The notes under the pieces were generated by a model. It was not told the DNA's origin, searched no databases, and saw only the letters and a list, made by a program, of their open reading frames with translations. Below are positions 5,021 through 46,525 of a stretch of 61,797 nt of DNA, in pieces. This DNA is from Methanobrevibacter sp. (GTDB taxonomy: Archaea > Methanobacteriota > Methanobacteria > Methanobacteriales > Methanobacteriaceae), in contig JAGCBE010000509.1 of NCBI GenBank assembly GCA_017652345.1, forward strand, positions 1 through 61,797. The letters run 5' to 3'. A program made the translations under genes and the position numbers. Every line of letters begins with the position of its first letter. The first letter of the stretch is position 1.

Positions 5021-5266
5021 CTATTCATTTTCTTTATTACTATCAGTTTTACCATCTCTAATTTCAAGAGCATGTTCAAGAGTATATTTATCCCAGCAGC
5101 CATTTTTCACAAGTTCAAACAATAGAAACATATCGCTTCTAAGTTTACCTGTTACTTTAGATTTACACAGTAAATTAGAAATGTCTCTAATTTCATCGTA
5201 ATCTAAAGTAACAGTTGCCTGCTTAATGGCACATTTTGGATTATGAATAATTTCACGAATTGTCAT
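5021..5266 (-). CDS. Hypothetical protein (81 aa)
   Basis: Start chosen at MTIREIIHNP, whose ATG overlaps the 3' end of the RNA ligase gene by 14 nt. A longer reading back to 5323 would run through ligase coding sequence. The protein is a small helical domain (LDYDEIRDISNLLCKS...LFELVKNGCWDKYTLEHAL) with an acidic tail. Its place at the end of the RNA-repair transcript is the only functional hint. Confidence 0.65.
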   Translation of the reverse strand: MTIREIIHNPKCAIKQATVTLDYDEIRDISNLLCKSKVTGKLRSDMFLLFELVKNGCWDKYTLEHALEIRDGKTDSNKENE

Positions 5267-6590
5267 CTTCAACAACCTCCTGTGCTTCTTCCATATCTGG
5301 CTCAGTTGCAATATCCTTTGCAAGTCCTTCTAAAACCTTAAAGCTAAAATTCTTGTGTTTATATGCACAAAACTTAGGACGATTTACAATACGAACTACG
5401 ACACCTTCACGAACATGGGTCTTTCCAATAGGATCAGGCCCATCATAGTATTCTTCTGCCTTTTCCTTAATCCAATCGCCAGCAGTCATATTAAATGTGT
5501 CAAGTATATCTTGTGACGGAATATAAGCTTTTTCAAGCATAGGAACACACTTCACACCCATCTGTTCGCAACGATAACGCATAAAATCTGGGCTATACTC
5601 TACAACAAATCCATCTTCATTTGTCATAGTCATACGATAAACATAAAAATCAGAGCCATTTCCAGAGCACCCATAGGAGAACACGGTAGTGTCACCATAC
5701 TGCTTAGTAAAAGCTTTATCAGAAATCTTACTATTGGAGACAGAGGACATGATGGGAGTTCCATTTGTAGTAAATCCTACTACTTCATAATATACAGTTT
5801 CTCCCTTATTTAGCTTTCCCTCAAATGCTTTTGCATGGATAGCTCTAAATTCATTATTTCCATAGTAACCACCATCTTCAAAATCATTAAGAACTACTCG
5901 TCTTGTGCCAGTAACATAACCCCAATCATATACAGGAGCACCCTGTTTCCTCAGAATTTTATCAAGAAGTGTTCTCTTATAACCAACAAATTTAGGTAAG
6001 TAACCTGTTCTCTGGGAGGTTCCGTGCATCTTGAGAGTGATTTCAATTTGGTCATTTGGCTTAAAAGCACCAAGATTATATGCAAGTTGTTCAGTATCTA
6101 CATGCTCAGCAAACAAAGGTGCAATAGGTTCACTATGCTTTCTTGTTCTATTTCCACTGCTTACCTTACCAACTCTAATATTACTTCTTGGAATATATTT
6201 ACAGCAAATTTCATGCCCATTTAGAGTTTCAATCTTTTCTCCAACTTCAAACTTCGTAACTCCTGTATAAGCAAGAGATTCAAGAGGCATAAAAAGTCCA
6301 TCAGACTTTTCACCTCTGAGCTTCATTGCACGAATATTTCTCTTATCTGGGTCAAGATAACCTCCTACATTATTCCCATTCTCGTCCTTCTTACGAACAA
6401 GATTATTGTTTTCACAATATTCCTTACTAAGCTGAATGTCAGTAGGAAAATATACTCCAATATCATCAATTTTAATATCAAGCCCAACAATTACAGATGT
6501 ACCAAAAATAGTTGCAATTTGAAGTCTATCTGCATTAGAATGGGGATGAAGTTCGTTAATTTTTACTACATATCCAACATGCTCACTCAT
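5253..6590 (-). CDS. RNA ligase, Rnl5-like (445 aa)
   Basis: The nucleotidyltransferase motif I is LKMHGTSQR with the AMP-accepting Lys at residue 187, the KxHGT/S variant typical of Rnl5 ligases such as Deinococcus RNA ligase. An N-terminal OB-like module (HPHSNADRLQIATI, similar to the tRNA-binding domain of tRNA synthetases, then ...RAMKLRGEKSDGLFMP) precedes it, as in that family. Downstream motifs include EVVGFTTNGTP, DGFVVEYS and REGVVVRI. It likely seals nicked RNA. It shares an operon with the kinase-HD protein at 7193-8275. AGGAG precedes the ATG. Confidence 0.85.
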   Translation of the reverse strand: MSEHVGYVVKINELHPHSNADRLQIATIFGTSVIVGLDIKIDDIGVYFPTDIQLSKEYCENNNLVRKKDENGNNVGGYLDPDKRNIRAMKLRGEKSDGLFMPLESLAYTGVTKFEVGEKIETLNGHEICCKYIPRSNIRVGKVSSGNRTRKHSEPIAPLFAEHVDTEQLAYNLGAFKPNDQIEITLKMHGTSQRTGYLPKFVGYKRTLLDKILRKQGAPVYDWGYVTGTRRVVLNDFEDGGYYGNNEFRAIHAKAFEGKLNKGETVYYEVVGFTTNGTPIMSSVSNSKISDKAFTKQYGDTTVFSYGCSGNGSDFYVYRMTMTNEDGFVVEYSPDFMRYRCEQMGVKCVPMLEKAYIPSQDILDTFNMTAGDWIKEKAEEYYDGPDPIGKTHVREGVVVRIVNRPKFCAYKHKNFSFKVLEGLAKDIATEPDMEEAQEVVEDDNS

Positions 6591-34579: not shown

Positions 34580-36063
34580 TATATGCCCCAGTCGAACTTT
34601 TCAAACACCTTTTCATCTAATTTTTGTGGTTTTTCAACACTTTTTTCTATGGTGTTTTGTGGTTTTTCAGTATTTTCTTCCAAATTAAATCCTTCTGCAA
34701 ACTTTATTCTTGCCTCTGCTATTGGAATATAATCTTCTGATAGCTCAACGCCAATAAATTTATAATCAGCATTTCGCTCTCTGTTTTCAAACATTACTGC
34801 CTTTCCTGTACTTCCGCTTCCCATAAATGGGTCTAATATTGTTGCTCCTTTTGGTGCTACCAATCTTACTAAATACTGCATTAAGTCTACGGGCTTAACG
34901 CTGGGATGAATATTTTTTCTAACCAAAATTTTATTAAACTTTTTCATCTCAACATCTACATTCCCTCTTGCTATTTCTGCCTTTGCTTGATTACTTGCAC
35001 CAAAATAATTATCATCTAACAGTTCACAACCATCTTCTCTATCTTTCTTTGAAGCTTTCGCACAATAGAAATATCTTGAAGCAGAACCAGTATCATTGTA
35101 CCACTCACGAAACCCACACAGGCTTGTTGAGCTTTCTTGTAAACTTTGGCCCCTATAAATATGACCATTTGAATAGTTGTTTTGAGAACTTACCCCCTTG
35201 CTGTCTGGAAATCCACCGCATACCTCATCATAATCAGATTCATCATAAGTTAGAATTAAATTTGCTGGAAAACGACCATATTGCTGTCCACAAGTTTGAT
35301 GGGTTTCTTGTGGGACACTGTCTCCATAAATACCTTTAGATTTAGAACTTTCTGTACTTCTTGAATGAACAGTAATTGTTTCATCAGTACCTATTCTGCA
35401 CTCATCAATATTTAGTCCACCAACACCATATTTAAGAACATTATCTACTAAACTTCCATCAAAAGGTTTTCTCGCTACTATTACTGGTTCAAATGCTGGT
35501 TTTAAGCAAGTACCCCATCCTTCCCACTCATTCTGTGCTTGTCTAATGTCCGCTGAAACAGTATTAAATCTATTATTTCTTTCAGGTGCCCCGTTATTAA
35601 AACTGTCTACAATTTTTCTTTTCCCTTCTCGCAGGTCTTTAGCTTGTTTCTTGAGTATCTGCTCATTTTGACCAATAACAGGACTCTCAACACCATTTTT
35701 CTTATCAATGGCAAGACCAATATTCATAGACTTAGGAAATCCACTTCCGTAAACCCACATAATAGTATCTCTTATCTCAAACCCGGCATCTTCAATAGCA
35801 CAAGCAATTCTATGATAAGTTCTGCTACCACCAAATGCTAATAAATATCCACCAGGCTTTAGGGCATCATAACAGACTTTCCAAGTTTCTTTTTGAAAAG
35901 ATACTCCTTGATTATCCCAAGATTTCCCCATAAAATTTAACTCATACGGAGGGTCTGTAACAATACAGTCAATGGACATAGGCTTAATATGACCACTACT
36001 AATCATGTCAAGCATATTTCCATTATATAATTCACAAAAATTATCACTATGTATAAGTTTCAT
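34579..36063 (-). CDS. DNA methyltransferase 1, beta-class (494 aa)
   Basis: Motif IV CIVTDPPYELNFMGKSWD lies near residue 35, and motif I LDPFMGSGSTGKAVMFEN near residue 420: the beta-class order of N6-adenine/N4-cytosine methylases. A long central target-recognition region separates them, and an extra low-complexity tail (KPQNTIEKSVEKPQKLDEKV) ends the protein. No partner nuclease is nearby, so self-protection against host restriction is likely. Confidence 0.88.
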   Translation of the reverse strand: MKLIHSDNFCELYNGNMLDMISSGHIKPMSIDCIVTDPPYELNFMGKSWDNQGVSFQKETWKVCYDALKPGGYLLAFGGSRTYHRIACAIEDAGFEIRDTIMWVYGSGFPKSMNIGLAIDKKNGVESPVIGQNEQILKKQAKDLREGKRKIVDSFNNGAPERNNRFNTVSADIRQAQNEWEGWGTCLKPAFEPVIVARKPFDGSLVDNVLKYGVGGLNIDECRIGTDETITVHSRSTESSKSKGIYGDSVPQETHQTCGQQYGRFPANLILTYDESDYDEVCGGFPDSKGVSSQNNYSNGHIYRGQSLQESSTSLCGFREWYNDTGSASRYFYCAKASKKDREDGCELLDDNYFGASNQAKAEIARGNVDVEMKKFNKILVRKNIHPSVKPVDLMQYLVRLVAPKGATILDPFMGSGSTGKAVMFENRERNADYKFIGVELSEDYIPIAEARIKFAEGFNLEENTEKPQNTIEKSVEKPQKLDEKVFEKFDWGI

Positions 36064-37259
36064 TACTTTTTATAAATCATCCTTAGCTTCTCTTCCTTTT
36101 GAAAATAAGAAGGTCTTGGCTGTTCAACTTCATACATTTCATCAACAGTTTTCAGTGTAAAGGGTCTGTTTCCCTTTACTGGCTTACTAACTGGCCCACC
36201 AACTCTCTTGGAAAAAATATTCTCTGCATCGCTTACATTTAATACTTTCTTTCCATCAATATTAAATCTTCTTACAACATCACCAGCACTGTACGCCTCA
36301 AAAGGAGTTGTGCAAACCTCATAACAACCATTTTCATCTTTTACAATAACAGAACTTTGATTATATTTCTTCCCAAGCCTAACCGCTTCTGCCTTTGGAA
36401 TATTAGAAATAAATAAACTTCTTTCGTCAAAAGCTTCTCCGTCCTCAACCCATCTAGAAACAAACTCAACAAACCCATATTTCTTTGCAGTATTTTTAAG
36501 CTCTCTAAGCAATTCCATGTTTTCCTTATACGATCTTTCAGAACGGAATGGAGATATTATTGCCCAACTATCCATGTTTGTAATGTTGTTATAAAGCCTT
36601 GAAGTACTTCCCTCAAACAGCTTATTACCATTTTTACTAAAATATACAAGTTCACCATTTAAACTTCTAACATGTGCACCAGCAATTGTGTGTGGCTGTT
36701 CATTCAAGTAACACTCGGAGAAAGAAAATCTCTGTGAGCTTCCACCTTTACTATTCTTCCCATCCCACTTCTTCAAGGATGTAAAATAGTCTTGCTTAAT
36801 ATCATTAAAAGATGTTTTCCCAGTAAATTCCATATCTCTGTTTTTACTACTAACACCATAATATGCAGGAGACTTATCAGCATACTTCAACAAAATCTGT
36901 TCTTGGTTATACTTATTCCCAAGCTTAAACATATCTTCAACAAATTTATTGAAGTCTTTATTTTCTATGCCACCTGCTCCATCCTTTCTGAATGGAAGAA
37001 CATACAAAGACTTTTCATAAACCGGAACTCTTTCTCCACTTTCAGTTGTTTCTATATATCCACCGAAAACAGGCACATAGGAATATCCAAGACTCTTAAT
37101 ATCCTTTTTCAATTCTTCAAATTTCTTATTATTTTCCTCTGTACTTCTTTCGTTTCTTGAGGCAGATAAAACAGCATAGCCATCTTTATCATGACCACGA
37201 ACAAGCCTGTTTAGACTTGCTTCTGTCAGTTTAACATAATTTTCATTTATAACCTTCAC
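36063..37259 (-). CDS. Tandem-domain hypothetical protein (398 aa)
   Basis: Two copies of one domain are visible: GYAVLSASRNERSTEENNKK...LGYSYVPVFGGY...EKSLYVLPF...KLGNKYNQEQILLKY and SWAIISPFRSERSYKENMEL...YGFVEFVSRWVED...ERSLFISNI...RLGKKYNQSSVIVK. A stretch of about 80 residues joins them, and a basic C terminus follows. The repeated core (S-R-ERS..EN, E-SL, LGxKYNQ) is likely a ligand-binding fold; function unknown. It lies one base before methylase 1. Confidence 0.72.
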   Translation of the reverse strand: MKVINENYVKLTEASLNRLVRGHDKDGYAVLSASRNERSTEENNKKFEELKKDIKSLGYSYVPVFGGYIETTESGERVPVYEKSLYVLPFRKDGAGGIENKDFNKFVEDMFKLGNKYNQEQILLKYADKSPAYYGVSSKNRDMEFTGKTSFNDIKQDYFTSLKKWDGKNSKGGSSQRFSFSECYLNEQPHTIAGAHVRSLNGELVYFSKNGNKLFEGSTSRLYNNITNMDSWAIISPFRSERSYKENMELLRELKNTAKKYGFVEFVSRWVEDGEAFDERSLFISNIPKAEAVRLGKKYNQSSVIVKDENGCYEVCTTPFEAYSAGDVVRRFNIDGKKVLNVSDAENIFSKRVGGPVSKPVKGNRPFTLKTVDEMYEVEQPRPSYFQKEEKLRMIYKK

Positions 37260-38413
37260 TATCTACTAATCTCCCTTACCTCTGGAATCAACTGTTTTAA
37301 CCTGTACGAATTAATTGTGATTGCAGGGCTATCACCATAACTAATGTCAATTTCCTTTCCCTGCACAGCTTTTAGCTGATTTACCAAATCCGCAAATCTA
37401 ATCACGGACTCGTGCTCAATGGTGTTTGTTCCAGAAATGTATTTAACAACTTCATAATTATTGTTTTTAACTGAAACAAGTTTTACACTATCCTCTCCAA
37501 AAACAAGCTTTGAGTAATTAAGGACTGTCACATCAAACTTTTTATCAAAAACCATTAATCTTTGAAGTGCCTTTTCAAAACTTTTTTTATCAATAATAGC
37601 ATGTGTGCTACTAACATTGTTTGCCAATGTTCTAAGCTTTATAGACGGGAACTTATCAACAACAGCCCTCGGCTGAGAAACAACAATTAAGCTTATACTG
37701 TAGTCTTCGTTTTCACAACTTAGTTTTACCTTAATTGGGTCATCATAACCGTTCTCAATAATATTTACATTAACTTTTTGGCATTTTTCAAAAATCTTCA
37801 TGAGCTTTGCCTGTGTCCCATTAAGAAGAAACTTAAATTCATCAGGTGTGTTTTCTTGCCCATTAAAATCATTTATATAAATATTTTCTGTAAATGTCAA
37901 AGACCCAATATTATCTACATAGATATATTGCTGAATTTCCCTTGAAAACAGAGAGTCAAGCAACCCCTTTGCATTAATTGATGCAATACTTGAAATATCT
38001 TCCCCAGACAACAAATTATTGGCAGTATCGATTTCGTCAAATGAAATCTTATCAACACTTTTTACAATTCCTGCCTCTTTTATAATCGGAAATGTATATT
38101 CTCCGCTCTCTGTTTCTACAACAAGAGAGTTCCTAATACACTTAAATTCTGCAATACCACTATCAAGCTTTGACACAAGCGGAACAAATGTGTCAGAGGA
38201 AACAGTTGCATGAAGATAAGAATTGTCATCACCCTCAACACATTTAACAGATGCTTCCATGTAATAATCAAAATTTCCTACAGAAATTAAAAGAATTCCA
38301 TCGTCTTCCTCTACAAGCTCAATCCAACCAGCCTTTGGATTAATTGTAGATTTCTCAATTGCAAGATTAAGTTTTTCAATTACTTTTTTTAAATTCAAAA
38401 TATTAACTTTCAT
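37259..38413 (-). CDS. dnaN: DnaN-like sliding clamp (384 aa)
   Basis: Three-domain clamp pattern: N terminus MKVNILNLKKVIEKLNLAIE, domain 1 strands ISVGNFDYYMEASVKCV, TVSSDTFVPLVSKLDSGIAE, domain 2 GTQAKLMKIFEKC and domain 3 DKKSFEKALQRLMVFDKKFD...RFADLVNQLKAVQGKEIDIS. Length fits a bacterial beta clamp (about 370). Divergent, but the presence of DnaX- and delta-like loader genes supports it. It overlaps the next gene by one base. Confidence 0.78.
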   Translation of the reverse strand: MKVNILNLKKVIEKLNLAIEKSTINPKAGWIELVEEDDGILLISVGNFDYYMEASVKCVEGDDNSYLHATVSSDTFVPLVSKLDSGIAEFKCIRNSLVVETESGEYTFPIIKEAGIVKSVDKISFDEIDTANNLLSGEDISSIASINAKGLLDSLFSREIQQYIYVDNIGSLTFTENIYINDFNGQENTPDEFKFLLNGTQAKLMKIFEKCQKVNVNIIENGYDDPIKVKLSCENEDYSISLIVVSQPRAVVDKFPSIKLRTLANNVSSTHAIIDKKSFEKALQRLMVFDKKFDVTVLNYSKLVFGEDSVKLVSVKNNNYEVVKYISGTNTIEHESVIRFADLVNQLKAVQGKEIDISYGDSPAITINSYRLKQLIPEVREISR

Positions 38414-38422
38414 TATTTACCC

Positions 38423-39253
38423 TCAAATATCAAAACTAAATTTTTCAAAACTCTGTCCATTATGTTTCTTTTCAAAACAATTATTGTTGTTAAACTTTAA
38501 TCTGTTTTCTGCATACTCGCACTGATTTTTTGAAATTTCACTTCCGAAGCAAGAGACTCCAAGCATCTTACAAGCAACCGCTGTTGTGCCTGTTCCCATG
38601 AAAGAATCATAAACAACAAAATCCTCACTATGTTTTCCATACATATCTAAAAGTTTTACAACAAACTCAGTACTAAATGTTGCTTTATTTAACTCATTTG
38701 AAAAATCATTATTATCTGCTTCTATAAAATTATACAATACAGAATAAAATGGCTGTTTTGTTCTCTCATTAACTGTAACAACCTCTTTATTTGCTTTAAA
38801 TGTATGATATTCATTTCTTCTACAGAAAACAAAAACATACTCACAAATTCTCGTTAGTTTATTACTACTTACATTGTTTGGTAAAGCCGATCTCTTTTTC
38901 CATGTTATAATATCTGCACACATAAATGGTGTTCTGCTAATAATGTTATTTATGCATTGCAACATAACATCTGGGTTTTCTGAGCCGTATGATATATTAA
39001 AAAGAACAACACCATTTTCCCTTAATACTCTATCATACCCATGAAAAATTTCACAAATCCAATCACAGTACTCTTGATTTGTTTTATTATCGTCATATTC
39101 TTCATATCTGCAATTTGCAGTCTTCATACAGTACTCCGTATGACTTGTTCTGCTATTATTATATGGGGGGGATGTTATAACTAAATTTACAGACTTCTCC
39201 TGCAAAGTGCTGTTCATAGTATATATACAGTCTTCATTATAAATTTTAATCAT
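38423..39253 (-). CDS. DNA methyltransferase 2, beta-class (276 aa)
   Basis: Motif IV LVITSPPYNNSRTSHTEYC near residue 30 and motif I VYDSFMGTGTTAVACKMLG near residue 225. Compact, with a short recognition region. SPPY suggests an amino-methylase (N4-cytosine or N6-adenine). It overlaps methylase 3 by 8 nt, so the two are co-translated. Confidence 0.88.
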   Translation of the reverse strand: MIKIYNEDCIYTMNSTLQEKSVNLVITSPPYNNSRTSHTEYCMKTANCRYEEYDDNKTNQEYCDWICEIFHGYDRVLRENGVVLFNISYGSENPDVMLQCINNIISRTPFMCADIITWKKRSALPNNVSSNKLTRICEYVFVFCRRNEYHTFKANKEVVTVNERTKQPFYSVLYNFIEADNNDFSNELNKATFSTEFVVKLLDMYGKHSEDFVVYDSFMGTGTTAVACKMLGVSCFGSEISKNQCEYAENRLKFNNNNCFEKKHNGQSFEKFSFDI

Positions 39254-40427
39254 TTAAATGCTCTCCAAAATCAAACCGTTCAAAGCAATCCAATCTGTCT
39301 TGTTGTATAATTTTCTCTTTTCTAAAAAATGTTTTTTCAAACCGCTCATTTGATAAATCTACATATTTTTTGTTAAGCTCAATTCCAACATATTTTCTAT
39401 TATTCATAACAGCACAAATCCCAGTTGTTCCACTCCCACTAAAGGGGTCTATTACTGTCCCTCCCTCTGGGCAACCACTCAATATACAGGGCTTTATCAA
39501 CTCAATTGGGTATGTAGCAAAATGCTCCCCAGGATATGACTGTGTATTCACATGCCAAACATCCCGTTTGTTTTTTCCATCTGGATTTACAAACCTCTCC
39601 ATGGTATCAACTTGTCCAAGGCCAGCATAATTTCCACTTCCATTATCGCCTTTTCCGTGCCACCCATACTTTGACCTCACTATTGATACTTCACTAACCG
39701 GCTCTTTTATTGAATTACTGTCAAAATAATAATTTGGTTCCTTTGATAGCATAAATATATATTCATGTGATTTAGTACATCTATCTTTCACACTCTCTGG
39801 AAAACAATTTCCAGATTTATCCCATATAATATCAGAACGCAGATACCAACCATCTTGCCTCAAAGCAAAAGCAAGCATCCAAGGAATTCCAATTAAATCC
39901 TTTTGCTTTAAGCTATTTACATAGTTTCCTCTCCCACCACATTTTGTTCCATACTCTCCTTGAAAACCTGTATCATTTTTATGAAAATCTTTATGGTTTC
40001 CACCGCTTCCATTATAGCTATCCCCTATATTAACCCATAGAGTTCCAGTGTCCTTTAAAACTCTTTTTACTTCTCTAAAAACTTCAACAAGCTTCTCTAT
40101 ATATTCTTCCGGTGTTTCTTCGAGTCCTATTTGTTCGTCAACCCTTACTGCACCACATTTAGGACAAACTGCTTTATAAATTGCATCACCGACATATTGA
40201 CCCTTTTCTGCCATTGATTTATGCCCAGTTATATTATTTTTACCAACCTTACTATCCCTAACATGGTTACAACACGGGTCCCCGCCAACCCACTCACCTG
40301 TTCCATAATCTCTAAGGCCATAATATGGGGGAGAAGTTACACAACAATCTATACTCTTTTCTTCAAGTGTTTTTAACACCTCAAGACTGTTTCCGTTTAA
40401 AACAATAAAATCATTTTTATCAACCAT
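39246..40427 (-). CDS. DNA methyltransferase 3, beta-class (393 aa)
   Basis: The ATG at 40427 (MVDKNDFIVLNGNS) has AAGAGG about 11 nt upstream; the open frame extends further, inside polymerase coding. Motif IV CCVTSPPYYGLRDYGTGEWV, motif I VIDPFSGSGTTGICAVMNNR. An inserted metal site lies after motif IV (DPCCNHV ... CPKCGAVR), common in one N4/N6 methylase branch. Its gene starts 4 nt after the polymerase stop. Confidence 0.88.
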   Translation of the reverse strand: MVDKNDFIVLNGNSLEVLKTLEEKSIDCCVTSPPYYGLRDYGTGEWVGGDPCCNHVRDSKVGKNNITGHKSMAEKGQYVGDAIYKAVCPKCGAVRVDEQIGLEETPEEYIEKLVEVFREVKRVLKDTGTLWVNIGDSYNGSGGNHKDFHKNDTGFQGEYGTKCGGRGNYVNSLKQKDLIGIPWMLAFALRQDGWYLRSDIIWDKSGNCFPESVKDRCTKSHEYIFMLSKEPNYYFDSNSIKEPVSEVSIVRSKYGWHGKGDNGSGNYAGLGQVDTMERFVNPDGKNKRDVWHVNTQSYPGEHFATYPIELIKPCILSGCPEGGTVIDPFSGSGTTGICAVMNNRKYVGIELNKKYVDLSNERFEKTFFRKEKIIQQDRLDCFERFDFGEHLND

Positions 40428-40431
40428 ATAA

Positions 40432-41319
40432 TCAAATATCCTCTTGTATACAACTATATGCTCCATTGCACATATCCAATAGAACATTCTTTGATATTTC
40501 TGGAAAATCTTTTAAAACAGAAATAAAAGATTCATCTTCGGACATCCCATTAGAAATATTTTCAACATACATTACATTTATTTTATTTGATACATCATCT
40601 GCATACCAATGACCAACTCTATAGGTATCAACTTTCATATTTACAGAACATTCCGGTTTTGCAGATTCTATCATCAATTCAGCCAACCTATGCTCAACTT
40701 CTTCTGAGTTTTCAATTGGGCACTCACCTAATAATTCATCATGCACAGGAACTAAAATTCTAAACCCAAGCTCTCTCATTTTTTCATCATTGAATATCTT
40801 TACCATTGCTTTTTTAGTTAAAGAGGCGGCTGAGCCTTGAATACGTGCATTAGTACACTGTGTTAATGCTCTTGATATAAAATTTCCGTTATCTTTTATA
40901 AAAACATCTGCATTATCAGAATATTCTTCTTTAAACATCTTTTTCCTGTCAAACATCCCCATCCTTATATCAGAAGACTCAATGTTGTTCCATTCTTCCT
41001 GTAAGGATTCTGTTTTTTCTTTATCAATAACGGATATTTTTGAATCATTCACAGAACAGTCTAAAAAGCAATCTGCATCTGTATAGACATTCTTTTTTAC
41101 TGATACAGAGATTTGCGGAAGTGAAGCATCTGGAAGATGTCTTCTTCTTCCCATATAGTCTTCAACATACCCAATGTTCTTTGCATCTTCTTCATTTTTC
41201 AATGTAAACTCTTTTACAGATGGGAACATCTTAAAAAAGTTGTCTAACATTTCTTTGCATTCTTCAATTGAAACACCAAGATTGCTAGACAACAAATTTG
41301 CTCCCATTCCATACAATAT
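40432..41319 (-). CDS. polA: DNA polymerase I-type, 3' exon (palm/fingers, 295 codons)
   Basis: Begins with ILYGMGANLLSSNLGVSIEE, the second half of the O-helix motif B (KxxxxGxxYG), joined at a codon boundary to the preceding exon by removal of the intron at 41320-41612. Later come DYMGRRRHLPDA, ARIQGSAASLTKKAMVKI and the motif C VPVHDELLGECP. An insertion of roughly 85 residues lies between the RRRHLP segment and the NARIQGSAA helix. It ends in TGA at 40432, four nt before methylase 3. Confidence 0.85.
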   Translation of the reverse strand: MLYGMGANLLSSNLGVSIEECKEMLDNFFKMFPSVKEFTLKNEEDAKNIGYVEDYMGRRRHLPDASLPQISVSVKKNVYTDADCFLDCSVNDSKISVIDKEKTESLQEEWNNIESSDIRMGMFDRKKMFKEEYSDNADVFIKDNGNFISRALTQCTNARIQGSAASLTKKAMVKIFNDEKMRELGFRILVPVHDELLGECPIENSEEVEHRLAELMIESAKPECSVNMKVDTYRVGHWYADDVSNKINVMYVENISNGMSEDESFISVLKDFPEISKNVLLDMCNGAYSCIQEDI

Positions 41320-41612
41320 CAATTGTTCACAATGTTTCCATTGTGTTTAGACTATCTCTTCTTCCAAACATGGAAGCGGTGCGCTTCAAACAGCAACAAA
41401 CTCTGCCTTACACTGCTACACTCATCACAGTTAGTCGTTACACCACAAAATGGCACGGTATTACCTGCTATCTATTTCATAGACCGTAGGTTCTCTTACG
41501 AAGCGGATTCGTCTGTTATCAACAACTTATTTAACTTCTACCGTTAGCAGGACTTTATCCCACACCCCATTGTAATCTGGGTTCACACCGTTTTACTTGG
41601 GCAATTGTAGCC
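41320..41612 (-). ncRNA. Group I intron in the polymerase gene (293 nt, no homing ORF)
   Basis: The exon end TTGGGT pairs with GCCCAA about 10 nt inside the intron, leaving the U-G pair at the 5' splice site (P1). Core strands GACTA (R-side) and TAGTC (S-side, AAGAGATAGTC) form the P7 guanosine site. A P9-like 6-bp hairpin with GAAA tetraloop sits at 41329-41344, and the intron ends in G before ATATTG. Removing it joins ...KQIVLG to ILYGMG in frame. Introns in phage polymerase genes are known from SPO1-type phages. Confidence 0.88.
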
Positions 41613-41873
41613 ACCCAATACTATTTGTTTACACTTTTTTCTTATTTTTTTTCCTTCTGGATTAGGAGAACCATCTTCCCACTCCTCCATACATTCCCAA
41701 TAATCTTTATGGAACATAGCAGACCCGATTGTGGCATATAAATCTTTTTTGTTGTTATATGTTTCTATTAGGTTTTTCTCCTGTGTTATATGAGCCAATA
41801 TTCTTGGTTCTTGCTGAGACTAAGAGTAGTCTCCTCCAACAATAGCATATCTTGTTCTTGTTTTTACAGACCT
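41613..41873 (-). CDS. polA: DNA polymerase, middle segment (motif A), out of frame and with in-frame TAG
   Basis: This reads RSVKTRTRYAIVGGDYS, then TAG-TCT, then QQEPRILAHITQEKNLIETY to KKCKQIVLG at the intron. GDYSQQEPR is polymerase motif A. It is in the +1 frame relative to the upstream segment (skip the T at 41874), and the DYS-QQ junction is split by TAG TCT at 41822-41817. No start codon fits an independent gene of sensible size, so it is a fragment of the polymerase. Confidence 0.85.
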
Positions 41874-43509
41874 ACTCAAAATCATCATCTCCTTTTATCT
41901 CATACATAAATACTGTTTTATTTCCATTTCTCTTTATCTTTGTTATTTTACAAAAAACATCTGAATCCAACCCGTCATCATGAGCTTTAAAAATATCACC
42001 AATCTTTAAATCTTTTACATTTTTCCACTCACAATGCCAATAATAATCATAAACTTCTATTTCCGAAACATTGTCTAATTCTACTACATCAAAATCAGCA
42101 TTAACATCTTTATATTCTGTAGAAGCTTTAAACATAAGACGCATTGTTATTTCCTTTGCGGGTAGCTGTTGCATGTTAGGCCTATCACAGCTAAATCTTC
42201 CAGTTACAACATTATTATCTTCTTTTCCAAGCTGATTAAAACTAGCATGGATTTTCCCGTCTTTCTTTGAAATCTGTTCTGGCAAAGTAGAAGTATAGCT
42301 TGTAATCAACTTATTGTAATGCCTAAATTCAAGTAATGCTTCCGAAAATGGTATTTTTAAAGCCTCTAGTGCACTCTTATCAGTTGGCCTTGAAGAAGAT
42401 TCCTTTTTATCTGGCCTTTTATTGTCCTTTGCTCTTTTCTGGATAGGTGCTTTTAATATATCATACAGCACTATCTCAAGCTGTGGGGGACTTGAAAAAT
42501 TTACAGGGTCATCAAGTTTTCCAAGCCTTTGATAGTAAGAAACATCTTTTTCATGCTCGTCTAAAATTCTATACATTTTATCAGAGGCTTTATCCCTACA
42601 TTTTTTAAACTTTTCATCTAATTTTTTAATGAAATCCGTATCTACAGAAATTCCGTCATCTTCCATTTTTGCAACAACTGAAACAATTGGTATTTCAACA
42701 TTAGAAAACAAATTATATAAATTTTTCATATCCTCTTGTAGGAATATTTCCCTCTGCTTTAGGTACAATTTGTATGTATCGTAGGCATCAATAGCGGCAT
42801 ACAGAGCAAATACCTCTGGGTCAACCCACGCATATGGAAGCCCAGTAAAAAGTTTTTCAATATTATATGTCCCAATTGTTGGGTCAACATGTACTTTGTA
42901 TTGATACTTTAATCGTGCAAGCTCATTCTCATTAAGAAGCTGTGATGCAATCATCGTGTCCCAGTATATTGGCAGATATACACCAGTTACATTGAAACAA
43001 ACTCTAATATCAAATTTACCATTATGATAAATAATTTTATTTTCTTTATCTTTTAATTTTTGAAAAGCCTCTTTAATGCAGCTTTCACTAACTTGATTCT
43101 CTAATAAAATATCTGTTCCTGGTTTTGTATGATTTATTGGTATATAAACTGGCCTAGTATTTGGTAGATATAGACATAACCCCATTATCTTACAAGTTAG
43201 AGGATCAAGACTATTATCAGTTTCCGTATCAAGAGTTAAACAGTCTAACCCGATGGCTTTATCTATATATTCATCAAACTCTTTTTCGTCTCTGATTACT
43301 TTAACAAAATTTTTATATCTACCAAGTACCTTAAATACTTCCTCTTGAATATACTCTAATCTTTTTTCAAGAGGCATATTTTCTATCGAATTTTTCTTCT
43401 TTAGATTATGAGATTTACCTAATTTAACTAATTGCTGTTTTACAGCATCATGCGTTATTTCAGGCATCTCAAAATCATCTAAAAAAGAAAACTTTTTATA
43501 GTCAGCCAA
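41872..43509 (-). CDS. polA: DNA polymerase I-type, 5' segment (545 aa)
   Basis: N-terminal 3'-5' exonuclease domain with LTLDTETDNS (D94, E96), YHNGKFDIRVC and AIDAYDTYKLY, then thumb and palm start (HASFNQLGKEDNNVVTGRFS, CDRPNMQQLP). Residues 471-545 are a special insertion (WKNVKDLKIGD) before motif A. It stops at TAG 41874-41872, where the +1 frame carries on with the rest of the polymerase. Full recoded and spliced product would be about 925 residues, a normal size. It is the only polymerase found here. Confidence 0.9.
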   Translation of the reverse strand: MADYKKFSFLDDFEMPEITHDAVKQQLVKLGKSHNLKKKNSIENMPLEKRLEYIQEEVFKVLGRYKNFVKVIRDEKEFDEYIDKAIGLDCLTLDTETDNSLDPLTCKIMGLCLYLPNTRPVYIPINHTKPGTDILLENQVSESCIKEAFQKLKDKENKIIYHNGKFDIRVCFNVTGVYLPIYWDTMIASQLLNENELARLKYQYKVHVDPTIGTYNIEKLFTGLPYAWVDPEVFALYAAIDAYDTYKLYLKQREIFLQEDMKNLYNLFSNVEIPIVSVVAKMEDDGISVDTDFIKKLDEKFKKCRDKASDKMYRILDEHEKDVSYYQRLGKLDDPVNFSSPPQLEIVLYDILKAPIQKRAKDNKRPDKKESSSRPTDKSALEALKIPFSEALLEFRHYNKLITSYTSTLPEQISKKDGKIHASFNQLGKEDNNVVTGRFSCDRPNMQQLPAKEITMRLMFKASTEYKDVNADFDVVELDNVSEIEVYDYYWHCEWKNVKDLKIGDIFKAHDDGLDSDVFCKITKIKRNGNKTVFMYEIKGDDDFE

Positions 43510-43514
43510 TTAAA

Positions 43515-44207
43515 TCAACCCTTTCTTTTAAGTGAAAACGGGTCAATCATTACATCATCATCTTCTTCAAGCTCAGCATTATTATGATGATTTTCATAAT
43601 GCTTTGTTGCTTCTTCAATCTTTTTGTTTTCCTGCTCTTTATTCTTATTCTTAATCCACTGATCTTTAGGAATCCAATCCTGCTTGGGCTGCTTCTTAAC
43701 ATGCTCTGGAAGATAACCAGTCTTTAAAAATTCTGCAAGCTCATCGGCACTTCTATAAGTACAGCATCTATACCCAACATTTTTATCAATATCTTCTTTA
43801 GAAATCTCATTAGGCATTGGATATTTATTAGGATTCTGCACCGTCACTGAGTATTTAGGGAAGCTATCTCCCTCTCTATTAATCTTAATTACGCATTCGC
43901 TAAGATTTCCCCAATTCTCTTCAACATCTTTAAGAAGATTTATAAACTTCTCATTAGTAGTTCTATTCCAAACTTTTTCCTTACCATCTGTGTAATCCCA
44001 CAAATGCAGTGCAAGTCTTTCACTGGCTTGGTCATTCTTACAAAGAGGGCAATTACTCTCAAGACATCTTACCTTTTTCTTTGTACCGCCTCTAAGTTCA
44101 ATTGTATGAATCCCAATTCTCTCAATTTTATCTACTGTAGTAGATAAAATTCTAACAACAGCACTTTCACCATCACGAATGTTAAAAAATTCAATATCGT
44201 TTCCCAT
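43515..44207 (-). CDS. gp32-like single-stranded DNA-binding protein (230 aa)
   Basis: OB-fold-like N half (FFNIRDGESAVVRILSTTVD, IHTIELRGGTKKKVRCLESN) with an embedded CPLCKND and CCTYRSADEL Cys set for zinc, as in T4 gp32. A basic/Gln-rich linker and the acidic C-terminal region (NNAELEEDDDVMIDPFSLKR) resemble the gp32 A-domain that recruits partners. Six nt before the polymerase start. Confidence 0.8.
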   Translation of the reverse strand: MGNDIEFFNIRDGESAVVRILSTTVDKIERIGIHTIELRGGTKKKVRCLESNCPLCKNDQASERLALHLWDYTDGKEKVWNRTTNEKFINLLKDVEENWGNLSECVIKINREGDSFPKYSVTVQNPNKYPMPNEISKEDIDKNVGYRCCTYRSADELAEFLKTGYLPEHVKKQPKQDWIPKDQWIKNKNKEQENKKIEEATKHYENHHNNAELEEDDDVMIDPFSLKRKG

Positions 44208-44219
44208 AAATAAACTCCT

Positions 44220-45206
44220 CTATATTTTTTCTTCTAAACTAAAAAATTCTTCTTTTGTTAAATCATTTATATCTTTATCTTTTGGAACTTCTATGTATGT
44301 TACTATTTTATCCTTTAGTCCTCTTATAAGTCTATTACGACCATTTATACCAGCTTCATCACCATCAAGACAAAGGATATATTTTCTTATATTTACATTA
44401 TTCAACATATCAATTTGATATTTACTGCCCGTACCAAATAATGCTATGGCTTTTAAACCATATGACCATAGAGTTAATGCATTTATAATAGACTCAGTTA
44501 TATAAACTTCTTTTTCATTCTCAACGTAGTCTAACCCATAAATTGGTTTTGGCTCGACTTTAGGCATAATAAATTTCTTATATTTTACTTTTCTTTTTGC
44601 AACAAATAGACATTGGCCATTCACATAAACTGGAAATGTCAAAACTTCTTCTTTTGGATAATAGCCAACTTCAAACTTTTCTATAATATCGTCAGTTAAT
44701 TTTCGTTGATACATATAAGGATGGAAATAATCAAATTCTTTCAAAACATCATTTGTAATAATTGGTAAATCATTATAATTATTATAAATATGTTTTTCTT
44801 TAAATATATTGTCACCTATATCTCTTTGTTCTTCTAATATTTCGTAATCTACAAAACCAAGTAGCCAGTCAACAGACTTTCTATATGAAATATTTAAGCA
44901 ATCAGATATAAACCTGACCAAGGAAGCGTTATACCCACAACTAAAACAATGAACAGTCCCAGCGGGTATAACAATCTTTTCCCCATTACTTCCAACAGAT
45001 TCCCTATCTTGTAATAAAATATCACAAGACGGTGTGTTTTCTAAACCGCCCTTATGAATCGGACAGGTTATCCTTGCATTCATACTCTTATACTGCACAT
45101 GACTAAGCTTATTTATATGGCTAACATATAATTGTTGCTGTAACATGTCAATAATTCTATGAATTGGTGTTACTATAACCTTATTATAATCTATAACACA
45201 GGGCAT
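44220..45206 (-). CDS. DNA primase, DnaG-type (328 aa)
   Basis: CHC2-like zinc site: ITCPIHKGGLENTPSCDI and TVHCFSCGYNASLVRFISDC. TOPRIM core: EVYITESIINALTLWSYGLK with ILCLDGDEAGINGRNRLIRG. The C-terminal helicase-binding region of DnaG is absent. It makes RNA primers for lagging-strand synthesis with the helicase encoded just upstream. Confidence 0.9.
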   Translation of the reverse strand: MPCVIDYNKVIVTPIHRIIDMLQQQLYVSHINKLSHVQYKSMNARITCPIHKGGLENTPSCDILLQDRESVGSNGEKIVIPAGTVHCFSCGYNASLVRFISDCLNISYRKSVDWLLGFVDYEILEEQRDIGDNIFKEKHIYNNYNDLPIITNDVLKEFDYFHPYMYQRKLTDDIIEKFEVGYYPKEEVLTFPVYVNGQCLFVAKRKVKYKKFIMPKVEPKPIYGLDYVENEKEVYITESIINALTLWSYGLKAIALFGTGSKYQIDMLNNVNIRKYILCLDGDEAGINGRNRLIRGLKDKIVTYIEVPKDKDINDLTKEEFFSLEEKI

Positions 45207-45220
45207 TTCAACTACTCCCC

Positions 45221-46525
45221 TTAAAAAACAGAGTCACTTCTTTTAGAATCATCATAATTTCCTAAAAGTACATCAACATCTTCGCCATTTTTAGCATCTT
45301 TTTCAGAAGGAACATAGTGTAATGTTCCATAGTTTATATTCCACAAATATGTAAGCTTATCGCCTGTTTTTGCATTTCTTGATTTTCCAACTGTAAAAAT
45401 AACATTATCATTTTTTCTATCAATGAAAATAACAGTAGTAGCATCTTGGCCAATTCTGTCTGACTCAGCAATGTTTTTAGTGCTTGGGCCATTCTCCGTA
45501 GTGTCTTCTCTATTCAACTGCACAGCTTCAAGAATTGGAATCTTCTTAAGTCTTTGTAATGCTCTCAAATCCTTAGAAATGTTCACATATTGCTCTCTTG
45601 GTGTCCTTGCTCGTCTCTGGTCATCAAGAAGCGAAAGCTGGTCTATGCAAAGCATCTGTAAATCATACTTTTCAATAAATGCCCTTAATTTACTGACTGT
45701 AACAGAGCCATCAAACATATCTGGTGTAATACAATAGATATGTCCTTTAATAGAAGAGGAAATGGAATTTATATAATTTGAATAATCCTCTTTTATATTA
45801 GAGTTTCCATGAGTTAATGAACCATTAGCAATATTACCAGCAAAAGTATCAAGTCTATACCCTATTAAATCTGTCTCCATCTCGCCAGAATAATAGCCAA
45901 CTCTTAGTCCAGACTTAGCTGCCATCAAAGCAAAATAAACAATCGCCCAAGATTTGCCAACCCCTGTTCTTGCACAAATAGCGGCTGTTTCATTTTTCAT
46001 GTCCCACCCGCCAAGAATGTCATCAAGCTCTTTAAGCCCTGTTGTTACAAATGCTTTATCTGGGTTTTCAAGTCTTTCAATATATGATTCATACCGCAGT
46101 GAAGCATCTGATATAAGATCAACACACTTCTTTTGCTCTTGCTTAAGATAGTTTTGAGAAATGCTTGCCATAAGCTCAATGGCTTTATCTGTCTTCTCGT
46201 CCTTAATTAAATTACCAAGCTTCTTATAATCATTTATGACATCTCTATAAAGCTTAGCCTCTTTTAATCCATCAATGATTGCATCCTCAGATTCAGACAC
46301 ACTTATCCACTCAAAACTATCTGGAAACTTAGATTGAAAAGTTTCCTTAGACGGAAGCTGATTATATTTTTCAAAATAGTCAATTATAAAATCAAAATGA
46401 CTTCTATAAGTAGTAAAATAGTCAGATGTAATACCATTAAGAATAAAAATTTGGATTGAATTTTTATTATAAGCATAGTTTATAGCCTGTAGCTCACGCA
46501 TGCTACCATAAAGTCCATTTATCAT
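45221..46525 (-). CDS. DnaB-like replicative helicase (434 aa)
   Basis: RecA-like motor: GGWDMKNETAAICARTGVGKSWA (Walker A TGVGKS), YYSGEMETDLIGYRLDTFAG, LQMLCIDQLSLLDDQRRART (Walker B), and KKIPILEAVQLNREDTTENG. N-terminal helical domain is shorter than in bacterial DnaB. It shares one base with the loader gene. Confidence 0.92.
   Translation of the reverse strand: MINGLYGSMRELQAINYAYNKNSIQIFILNGITSDYFTTYRSHFDFIIDYFEKYNQLPSKETFQSKFPDSFEWISVSESEDAIIDGLKEAKLYRDVINDYKKLGNLIKDEKTDKAIELMASISQNYLKQEQKKCVDLISDASLRYESYIERLENPDKAFVTTGLKELDDILGGWDMKNETAAICARTGVGKSWAIVYFALMAAKSGLRVGYYSGEMETDLIGYRLDTFAGNIANGSLTHGNSNIKEDYSNYINSISSSIKGHIYCITPDMFDGSVTVSKLRAFIEKYDLQMLCIDQLSLLDDQRRARTPREQYVNISKDLRALQRLKKIPILEAVQLNREDTTENGPSTKNIAESDRIGQDATTVIFIDRKNDNVIFTVGKSRNAKTGDKLTYLWNINYGTLHYVPSEKDAKNGEDVDVLLGNYDDSKRSDSVF

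Follow-up and report, generated by a model that had tools for sequence, protein, structure and literature searches.

A probable short translational bypass across a stop codon in motif A of a split phage DNA polymerase gene

The window analyzed in this study, that is, the whole stretch of 61,797 nucleotides, carries on its minus strand a family A DNA polymerase gene that is divided into two halves and has a stop codon inside motif A; motif B, in the second half, is interrupted by a group I intron. The features of this locus, in the order in which they are read, are the following:

41872 to 43509, minus strand: N half of the polymerase, a separate ORF of 545 amino acids that comprises the 3'-5' exonuclease and the initial portion of the polymerase domain (Pfam PF01612 and PF00476)
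41875 to 42126, minus strand: insert domain that closes the N half, possibly intein/Hint-like (piece used for fold prediction)
41889 to 41894, minus strand: Shine-Dalgarno-like sequence AAGGAG, the putative own ribosome binding site of the leader ORF
41823 to 41888, minus strand: leader ORF of the C half, MMILSRSVKTRTRYAIVGGDYS, containing the motif A Asp, the catalytic residue in family A polymerases; its start is possibly the TTG at 41877-41879
41823 to 41825, minus strand: Ser codon TCT, the putative take-off codon, which closes the leader ORF (...VGGDYS)
41820 to 41822, minus strand: stop codon TAG, adjoining the Ser codon on its 3' side
41817 to 41819, minus strand: TCT, the putative landing codon, immediately 5' of CAG CAA GAA CC (QQEPR)
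41818 to 41831, minus strand: predicted hairpin GACTA-CTCT-TAGTC with the take-off codon and stop inside (5-bp stem, loop CTCT, -3.8 kcal/mol)
41613 to 41816, minus strand: C-half coding segment after the putative hop (QQEPR...QIVLG), up to the intron
about 41320 to 41612, minus strand: group I intron in motif B (Rfam RF00028 match at 41328-41584; fold z -2.2)
40432 to 41319, minus strand: last exon of the C half, with the end of motif B and motif C (VHDELLGE)

The last 80 or so residues of the N half form an additional domain, and the end of its ORF overlaps the start of the leader ORF. Numerous N-half homologues terminate at a similar position, and for the window N half itself three member sequences were found, spread over 10 contigs, the longest of which has 148,713 bases. 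No ORF of at least 70 amino acids lies between the two polymerase halves in the window. The leader, translated as (MMI)LSRSVKTRTRYAIVGGDYS and then closed by TAG, comprises 19 codons if counted from the TTG at 41877-41879 and 22 codons from the ATG at 41886-41888. A basic leader (K-x-R), which might have served as a nascent peptide signal, is also present in relatives without a hop, and the homologue P0125, which is 74% identical to the last-exon ORF, has a similar leader, an uninterrupted motif A and no intron. Exon continuity with P0125 and a P1 pairing with U.G guided the placement, by eye, of the motif B intron borders; its RF00028 match (26.9 bits, E 1.1e-4 in an 801-nt search) lies below the family gathering score of 50. 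This intron (41320-41612) has no ORF, and the relatives L003 and L006 are apparently interrupted at the same point by longer insertions.

Across the interrupted motif, the minus strand reads GGA GAC TAC TCT TAG TCT CAG CAA GAA CCA. Motif A is thereby spelled GDY-TCT-TAG-TCT-QQEPR at 41817-41831, the landing codon is identical to the take-off codon (both TCT), and the frame would resume at CAG, from 41816 downwards. The preliminary description of this DNA had placed TCT-TAG-TCT inside motif A and had drawn a hairpin GACTA/TAGTC with the loop CTCT over it; both were confirmed on the minus strand, the former at 41817-41831 and the latter at 41818-41831, and a hairpin was also predicted at most of the sites in relatives. 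The gene split just upstream and the group I intron downstream in motif B were absent from that description. Among 300 shuffles of the window hairpin, the share folding as low was 0.00, and a search of the window for GACTACTCTTAGTC with at most one mismatch gave a single match, the inverted repeat at 41818-41831 (0.02 expected). At the window hop site, where the insertion is only 6 nt, a group I catalytic core is absent. Elsewhere in the window, two adjoining ORFs at 38423-40487 match the same part of the phage DNA methyltransferase family phrog_67, and a protein with S-adenosylmethionine lyase and DUF3293 domains is encoded at 36063-37259.

The recurrence of the interruption was surveyed in 245 loci gathered by protein-guided scans of a viral collection, two pattern scans, one genome-contig scan and a phage collection. 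Motif A was sought by script downstream of the TGR motif, with an expression that required D and then two residues before E and allowed inserts, and this yielded 126 unique contexts. No site was obtained from 48 of the 245 loci (fragments, introns, other motif spellings and non-relatives; one of the 48, L001, stood outside the search). L057 and L132, in which a 10-nt 'insert' was a wrong-frame match, were removed by hand before counting, and L032 and L060, which have the insert and an intact motif, were missed by the search expression and entered only the tree. The distance from the TGR motif to motif A was short, indicating no insert, in 95 of the 126 contexts, all of them intact; at least six of the 48 loci without a site (L173, L183, L186, L223, L229 and L245) are also intact and uninserted and stand outside these 95. 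The distance was long in the other 31 contexts, which consist of 26 split genes with an insertion at motif A (below, hop contexts) and five intact ones, including L089, which was counted as split and intact yet shows no insert.

In each of the 26 hop contexts, 5-16 nt are inserted exactly between the Ser codon and the following Q/A codon, giving 27 sites with the window. All 26 lie in split genes, and no such insertion was present in the 95 genes without the insert. Among these relatives the inserted lengths are 6 nt (nine contexts), 7 (eight), 5 (three), 8 (two) and 9, 10, 12 and 16 (one each), and the length is not a multiple of 3 at 15 of the 27 sites. The insertion starts with a stop codon, directly after the Ser codon, in 25 of the 26 relatives (26 of 27 sites with the window), its first triplet being TAG in 19, TGA in four, TAA in two and GCC, which is no stop, in L095. 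A TCN triplet precedes the resume codon in 20 of the 26 relatives (21 of 27 with the window), divided into TCA (12), TCT (five), TCC (two) and TCG (one); the remaining six have GCT (two), GCG, CCG, TTG or CTC. Identical letters at the site were found in L003, at a DNA identity of 74%, and MT839691 (L002), a human gut contig, has TAG at the equivalent point. The leader frame of L080 contains no ATG, GTG or TTG. Nearly all sites originate from metagenome assemblies, and no near relative of window positions 36000-46000 was found in the phage collection. As a specificity control, the stop pattern was sought in the DYSQIE version of motif A, which gave three stretches in viral_contigs, none of them polymerase (by eye), while all nine stretches with the QQEP stop pattern were polymerase.

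L166, which stands outside the 26 hop contexts, and L099, which shares its site, read GAC TTC AGT GCT CAG GAA TAG AT CCT CGA, that is, the stop lies three codons further on, directly after GAA (near 8978 in L166 and near 8852 in L099), and the frame resumes at CCT. L166 is intact at the Ser codon and is a split gene whose halves are separated by an ORF that, judged by eye, resembles GIY-YIG. Judging from these letters, a +5 hop from GAA to GAT is likely, in which take-off and landing codons would have changed jointly from Ser to GA-codons. The phage contig L087 provides a natural test. At positions that are Gln in relatives, its polymerase carries TAG (SQ*EPR, YS*DKN, AD*IGS), a codon that therefore probably does not act as a stop in this phage, and its hop stop is TGA. 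This contig seemingly reads TAG as Gln; TAG also occurs in a primase-like ORF.

Codon choice around the site differs between hop contexts and intact ones. TCT serves as the take-off Ser codon in 17 of 26 hop contexts and in 13 of 95 intact no-insert contexts, AGY is found in 0 of 26 versus 32 of 95, and GAC encodes the Asp in 25 of 26 hop contexts versus 63 of 100 intact contexts. The Fisher test used four intact insert loci, L089 being excluded, and, like the hairpin test, counts related sequences as independent. These codon preferences support a signal that would act at the RNA or tRNA level. Additionally, a hairpin around the take-off codon and the stop was predicted at 23 of the 27 sites, starting at the G of GAC in 22 of them, and was absent at four (L080, L095, L103 and L176). 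The predicted stems pair different letters from phage to phage (GACTA/TAGTC, GACTT/AAGTC, CTTCTC/GAGAAG). Over the 27 sites, hairpin energies were lower than those of mononucleotide shuffles (p 1.3e-6, with related sequences treated as independent); for L002, L035, L059, L064 and L196, 12-48% of shuffles fold equally well.

Selection was estimated in 13 pairs of interrupted genes, some members of which recur between pairs. Downstream of the stop, dN was 0.135-0.369, and dS was 0.77 between the window and L003, while in the remaining 12 pairs it exceeded 1 or was saturated. The comparison of the window with L003 (dN 0.22, dS 0.77 for the segment after the hop) was made over 77 codons of open frame, including about nine codons into the intron. 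By these estimates, the downstream coding part is under purifying selection. Synonymous constraint in the leader gave no general signal, as pS was 0.09 for the window and L003 and 0.41-0.93 in the 12 other pairs. The leader value for the window and L003 (41823-41867) compares with 0.69 in the N half, and a recent exchange between both phages may be asked about here.

In all 13 hop-bearing records (57-214 kb, possibly fragments), every family A match belonged to this single locus, and searches for a family B polymerase were negative. A second, intact polymerase was considered and was not found in these possibly fragmentary records. The catalytic Asp is kept in the leader in 26 of 26 hop contexts (Asp being required by the search), and the flanking motif is also present in every hop leader. 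Since the leader keeps this residue, the leader would have to end up in the enzyme. As far as such patterns can tell, the interrupted polymerase genes look alive.

All 26 hop contexts were in genes split at the insert domain. An ORF lies between the halves in half of 20 mapped hop genes and is mostly GIY-YIG, and a GIY-YIG match above the cut-off was obtained for seven of 10 inter-half ORFs scanned in relatives. L196 has a PAPS-reductase-like ORF (by eye) between the halves, where other phages have the endonuclease. The insert and the hop are scattered over the polymerase tree, a distribution that looks like that of a mobile cassette; L168 and L169 are 97.9% identical upstream, and the cassette and hop are the difference between them. 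In L091, a group I core (61.8 bits) lies between the Ser and Gln codons; in L067, where a group I intron was expected at the site, an Rfam search at E 0.01 found none. Six loci (L032, L033, L051, L060, L096 and L165) have the insert without any hop, and at least nine of 34 aligned C-half proteins have an intact motif (by eye), so the split gene does not need the hop. A split intein that splices the halves was also considered. The fold of the insert domain may fit, but the candidate was rejected on inspection by eye, as the catalytic Cys/Ser1 and the final Asn are unconserved in the 17 aligned inserts and in the leaders and the leader end has no conserved Asn before Cys/Ser/Thr. The relatives P0041, P0080, P0087 and P0104 have a second, classical-looking intein in this polymerase, located at the TGRFS|C motif.

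The anatomy of the site, its recurrence, the selection downstream of it and its scattered distribution can be seen in the DNA itself. On this comparative basis, we think it quite likely that the site is a programmed ribosomal stop-hop, i.e., a short translational bypass, in a mobile homing cassette. The ribosome would initiate at the C half's own Shine-Dalgarno site and make a leader of about 17-22 residues that ends in the catalytic D-(Y/F)-S. It would then reach the stop codon with Ser-tRNA in the P site and stall, and some ribosomes would release the Ser-tRNA from its codon, slide 5-16 nt past the stop and the gap (2 to 13 nt between take-off and landing codons), re-pair on the triplet that precedes CAR/GCN (in most cases a further TCN codon) and resume translation. 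The small hairpin around the take-off codon and stop probably assists. The product would have the exact D-Y/F-S-Q/A-Q-E motif, and both halves would then join into one polymerase. The hop, the insert domain and often an endonuclease gene would form one mobile homing cassette; the hop insertion would lie at or near the cassette's right border, at a point that a group I intron occupies in one relative, and plausibly shields the host gene from cleavage. We infer not only the hop but also its efficiency, the assembly of the halves, homing and the protection from cleavage.

A stop-hop at this site had been put forward in the preliminary description, and the proposal gained support from the recurrence, the variable gap lengths, the mostly near-matching codons and the predicted hairpins. 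That description had also looked to homologues, and in these the stop recurs at the same codon in 25 of the 126 unique relative contexts. It had further weighed the case that homologues keep an intact motif while this locus is inactive: homologues with the intact motif do exist (P0125 and the 95 no-insert contexts), whereas we saw no sign that interrupted loci are inactive.

The best rival is mixed recoding, in which inserts of a multiple of 3 would be read through, those of 7 or 10 nt passed by a +1 frameshift and those of 5 or 8 nt by a -1 frameshift, leaving at least two extra residues in motif A. Each of these insert lengths could be brought into frame in this way, and +1 slips on the codon before a stop are well known (prfB). 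However, three mechanisms would be required at one site, the 16-nt insert of L196 runs into a second stop in the +1 frame, and the D-x-S-x-x-E spacing is constant in 100 intact contexts although the search expression allowed inserts. We therefore regard mixed recoding as unlikely.

A lesion that abolishes the C half or allows only a truncated product, possibly with translation restarting further on without motif A, is a very improbable account. Start-like codons do occur within about 10 codons after the site (TTG in the window, ATG in L003), and many database C halves begin at them. Against this stand the purifying selection downstream in 13 pairs, with dS above 1 in 12, the lack of any other polymerase in the 13 hop-bearing records and the Asp retained in all 26 leaders. 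The identical site in L003 and the downstream selection also speak against the lesion or error that the preliminary description had allowed for. Somewhat less probable still is removal at the RNA level, with 5-16 nt excised from the mRNA and the ends rejoined, even though the window encodes an RNA ligase-like protein at 5253-6590 (Pfam PF09414, 27.3 bits, cut-off 27) and L091 has a group I intron at this very point. Such excision leaves the stop-first insert unexplained, and we know of no system that excises such short, variable pieces from phage mRNA.

An amino acid inserted at TAG by a suppressor tRNA or a reassigned stop, as the preliminary description had also considered, would keep the frame in the six-nt cases but is hardly credible for the whole. 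Because 15 of the 27 lengths are not multiples of 3, stop suppression or reassignment cannot explain the set; TGA (four) and TAA (two) are used as well, L087 has TGA as its hop stop although TAG is apparently read as Gln, and tRNA-Leu is the sole tRNA in the window, with most of the phage genome lying outside it. A stop-hop that leaves the Ser codon and lands on the triplet preceding Q/A, unlike suppression, would restore the same motif at all sites by a single mechanism. Sequencing or assembly error, which metagenome data might suggest, has next to no chance and is refuted by the recurrence in relatives, namely the identical site in L003 (74% DNA identity) and 25 further contexts.

The textbook example of programmed bypassing in phages is gene 60 of T4. 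Passages of three articles describe that mobA splits gene 39 and that gene 60 carries the bypassed insert, which is possibly derived from a group I intron and possibly guards against cleavage (PMC5009743; also PMC3014915, PMC2988022); a further passage gives a UAG after the take-off GGA, plus a stem-loop (PMC11194080). The sites described here share with gene 60 a downstream half that would be translated from its own start, a stop directly after the take-off codon, a predicted take-off stem-loop at most sites, and a possible group I intron origin with protection from cleavage. A gene split by a cassette with a free-standing homing endonuclease, as in T4, is seen here in relatives, and the landing codon matches the take-off codon in the window and is mostly TCN in the relatives. 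They differ in the insert (5-16 nt versus 50 nt), the leader (17-22 codons versus 46), the matched codons (Ser versus Gly), the gene (DNA polymerase versus topoisomerase), the endonuclease (mostly GIY-YIG versus HNH) and the number of sites (27 versus one). The analogy to gene 60 that had been drawn for the window is upheld, on comparative evidence, by the recurring stop, the near-matching codons and the predicted hairpins.

Gene 60 bypassing was termed unique in a passage of a 2010 review (PMC3014915), and passages of a 2016 review state that shorter counterparts with matched codons had long been presumed and that no occurrences of natural in-frame stop hopping were known (PMC5009743). Synthetic stop-hops in E. 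coli, with matched codons around a stop, decoded 9 nt as one amino acid (Weiss 1987, cited in a passage of PMC5009743). At the sites reported here, mostly matching codons likewise lie on either side of a stop, and the hops would be natural. In Magnusiomyces mitochondria, many bypassed inserts are described in the same review, some with imperfectly matched codons (PMC5009743, in part). Many inserts and some imperfect codon matches are shared by our sites, which differ in that bacterial-type ribosomes and one position in one gene would be involved. The gaps here are presumably much shorter than the Magnusiomyces mitochondrial elements. A search of the open-licence literature found no report of bypassing in a phage DNA polymerase.

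Altogether, the 27 natural sites, which lie in an essential gene and have 2 to 13 nt between the two codons, provide a ready-made series for testing what a hop requires, and the observations suggest that gene callers may cut such polymerases short. There is a good chance that short stop-hops recur as a mobile trait in the DNA polymerase genes of phages, bypassing as little as 5 nt and spread by homing through many lineages, in which the cassette's own hop signal would keep an essential gene working and its target uncuttable. The sites also suggest that bypass signals may travel with homing cassettes generally, rather than being an oddity of T4.
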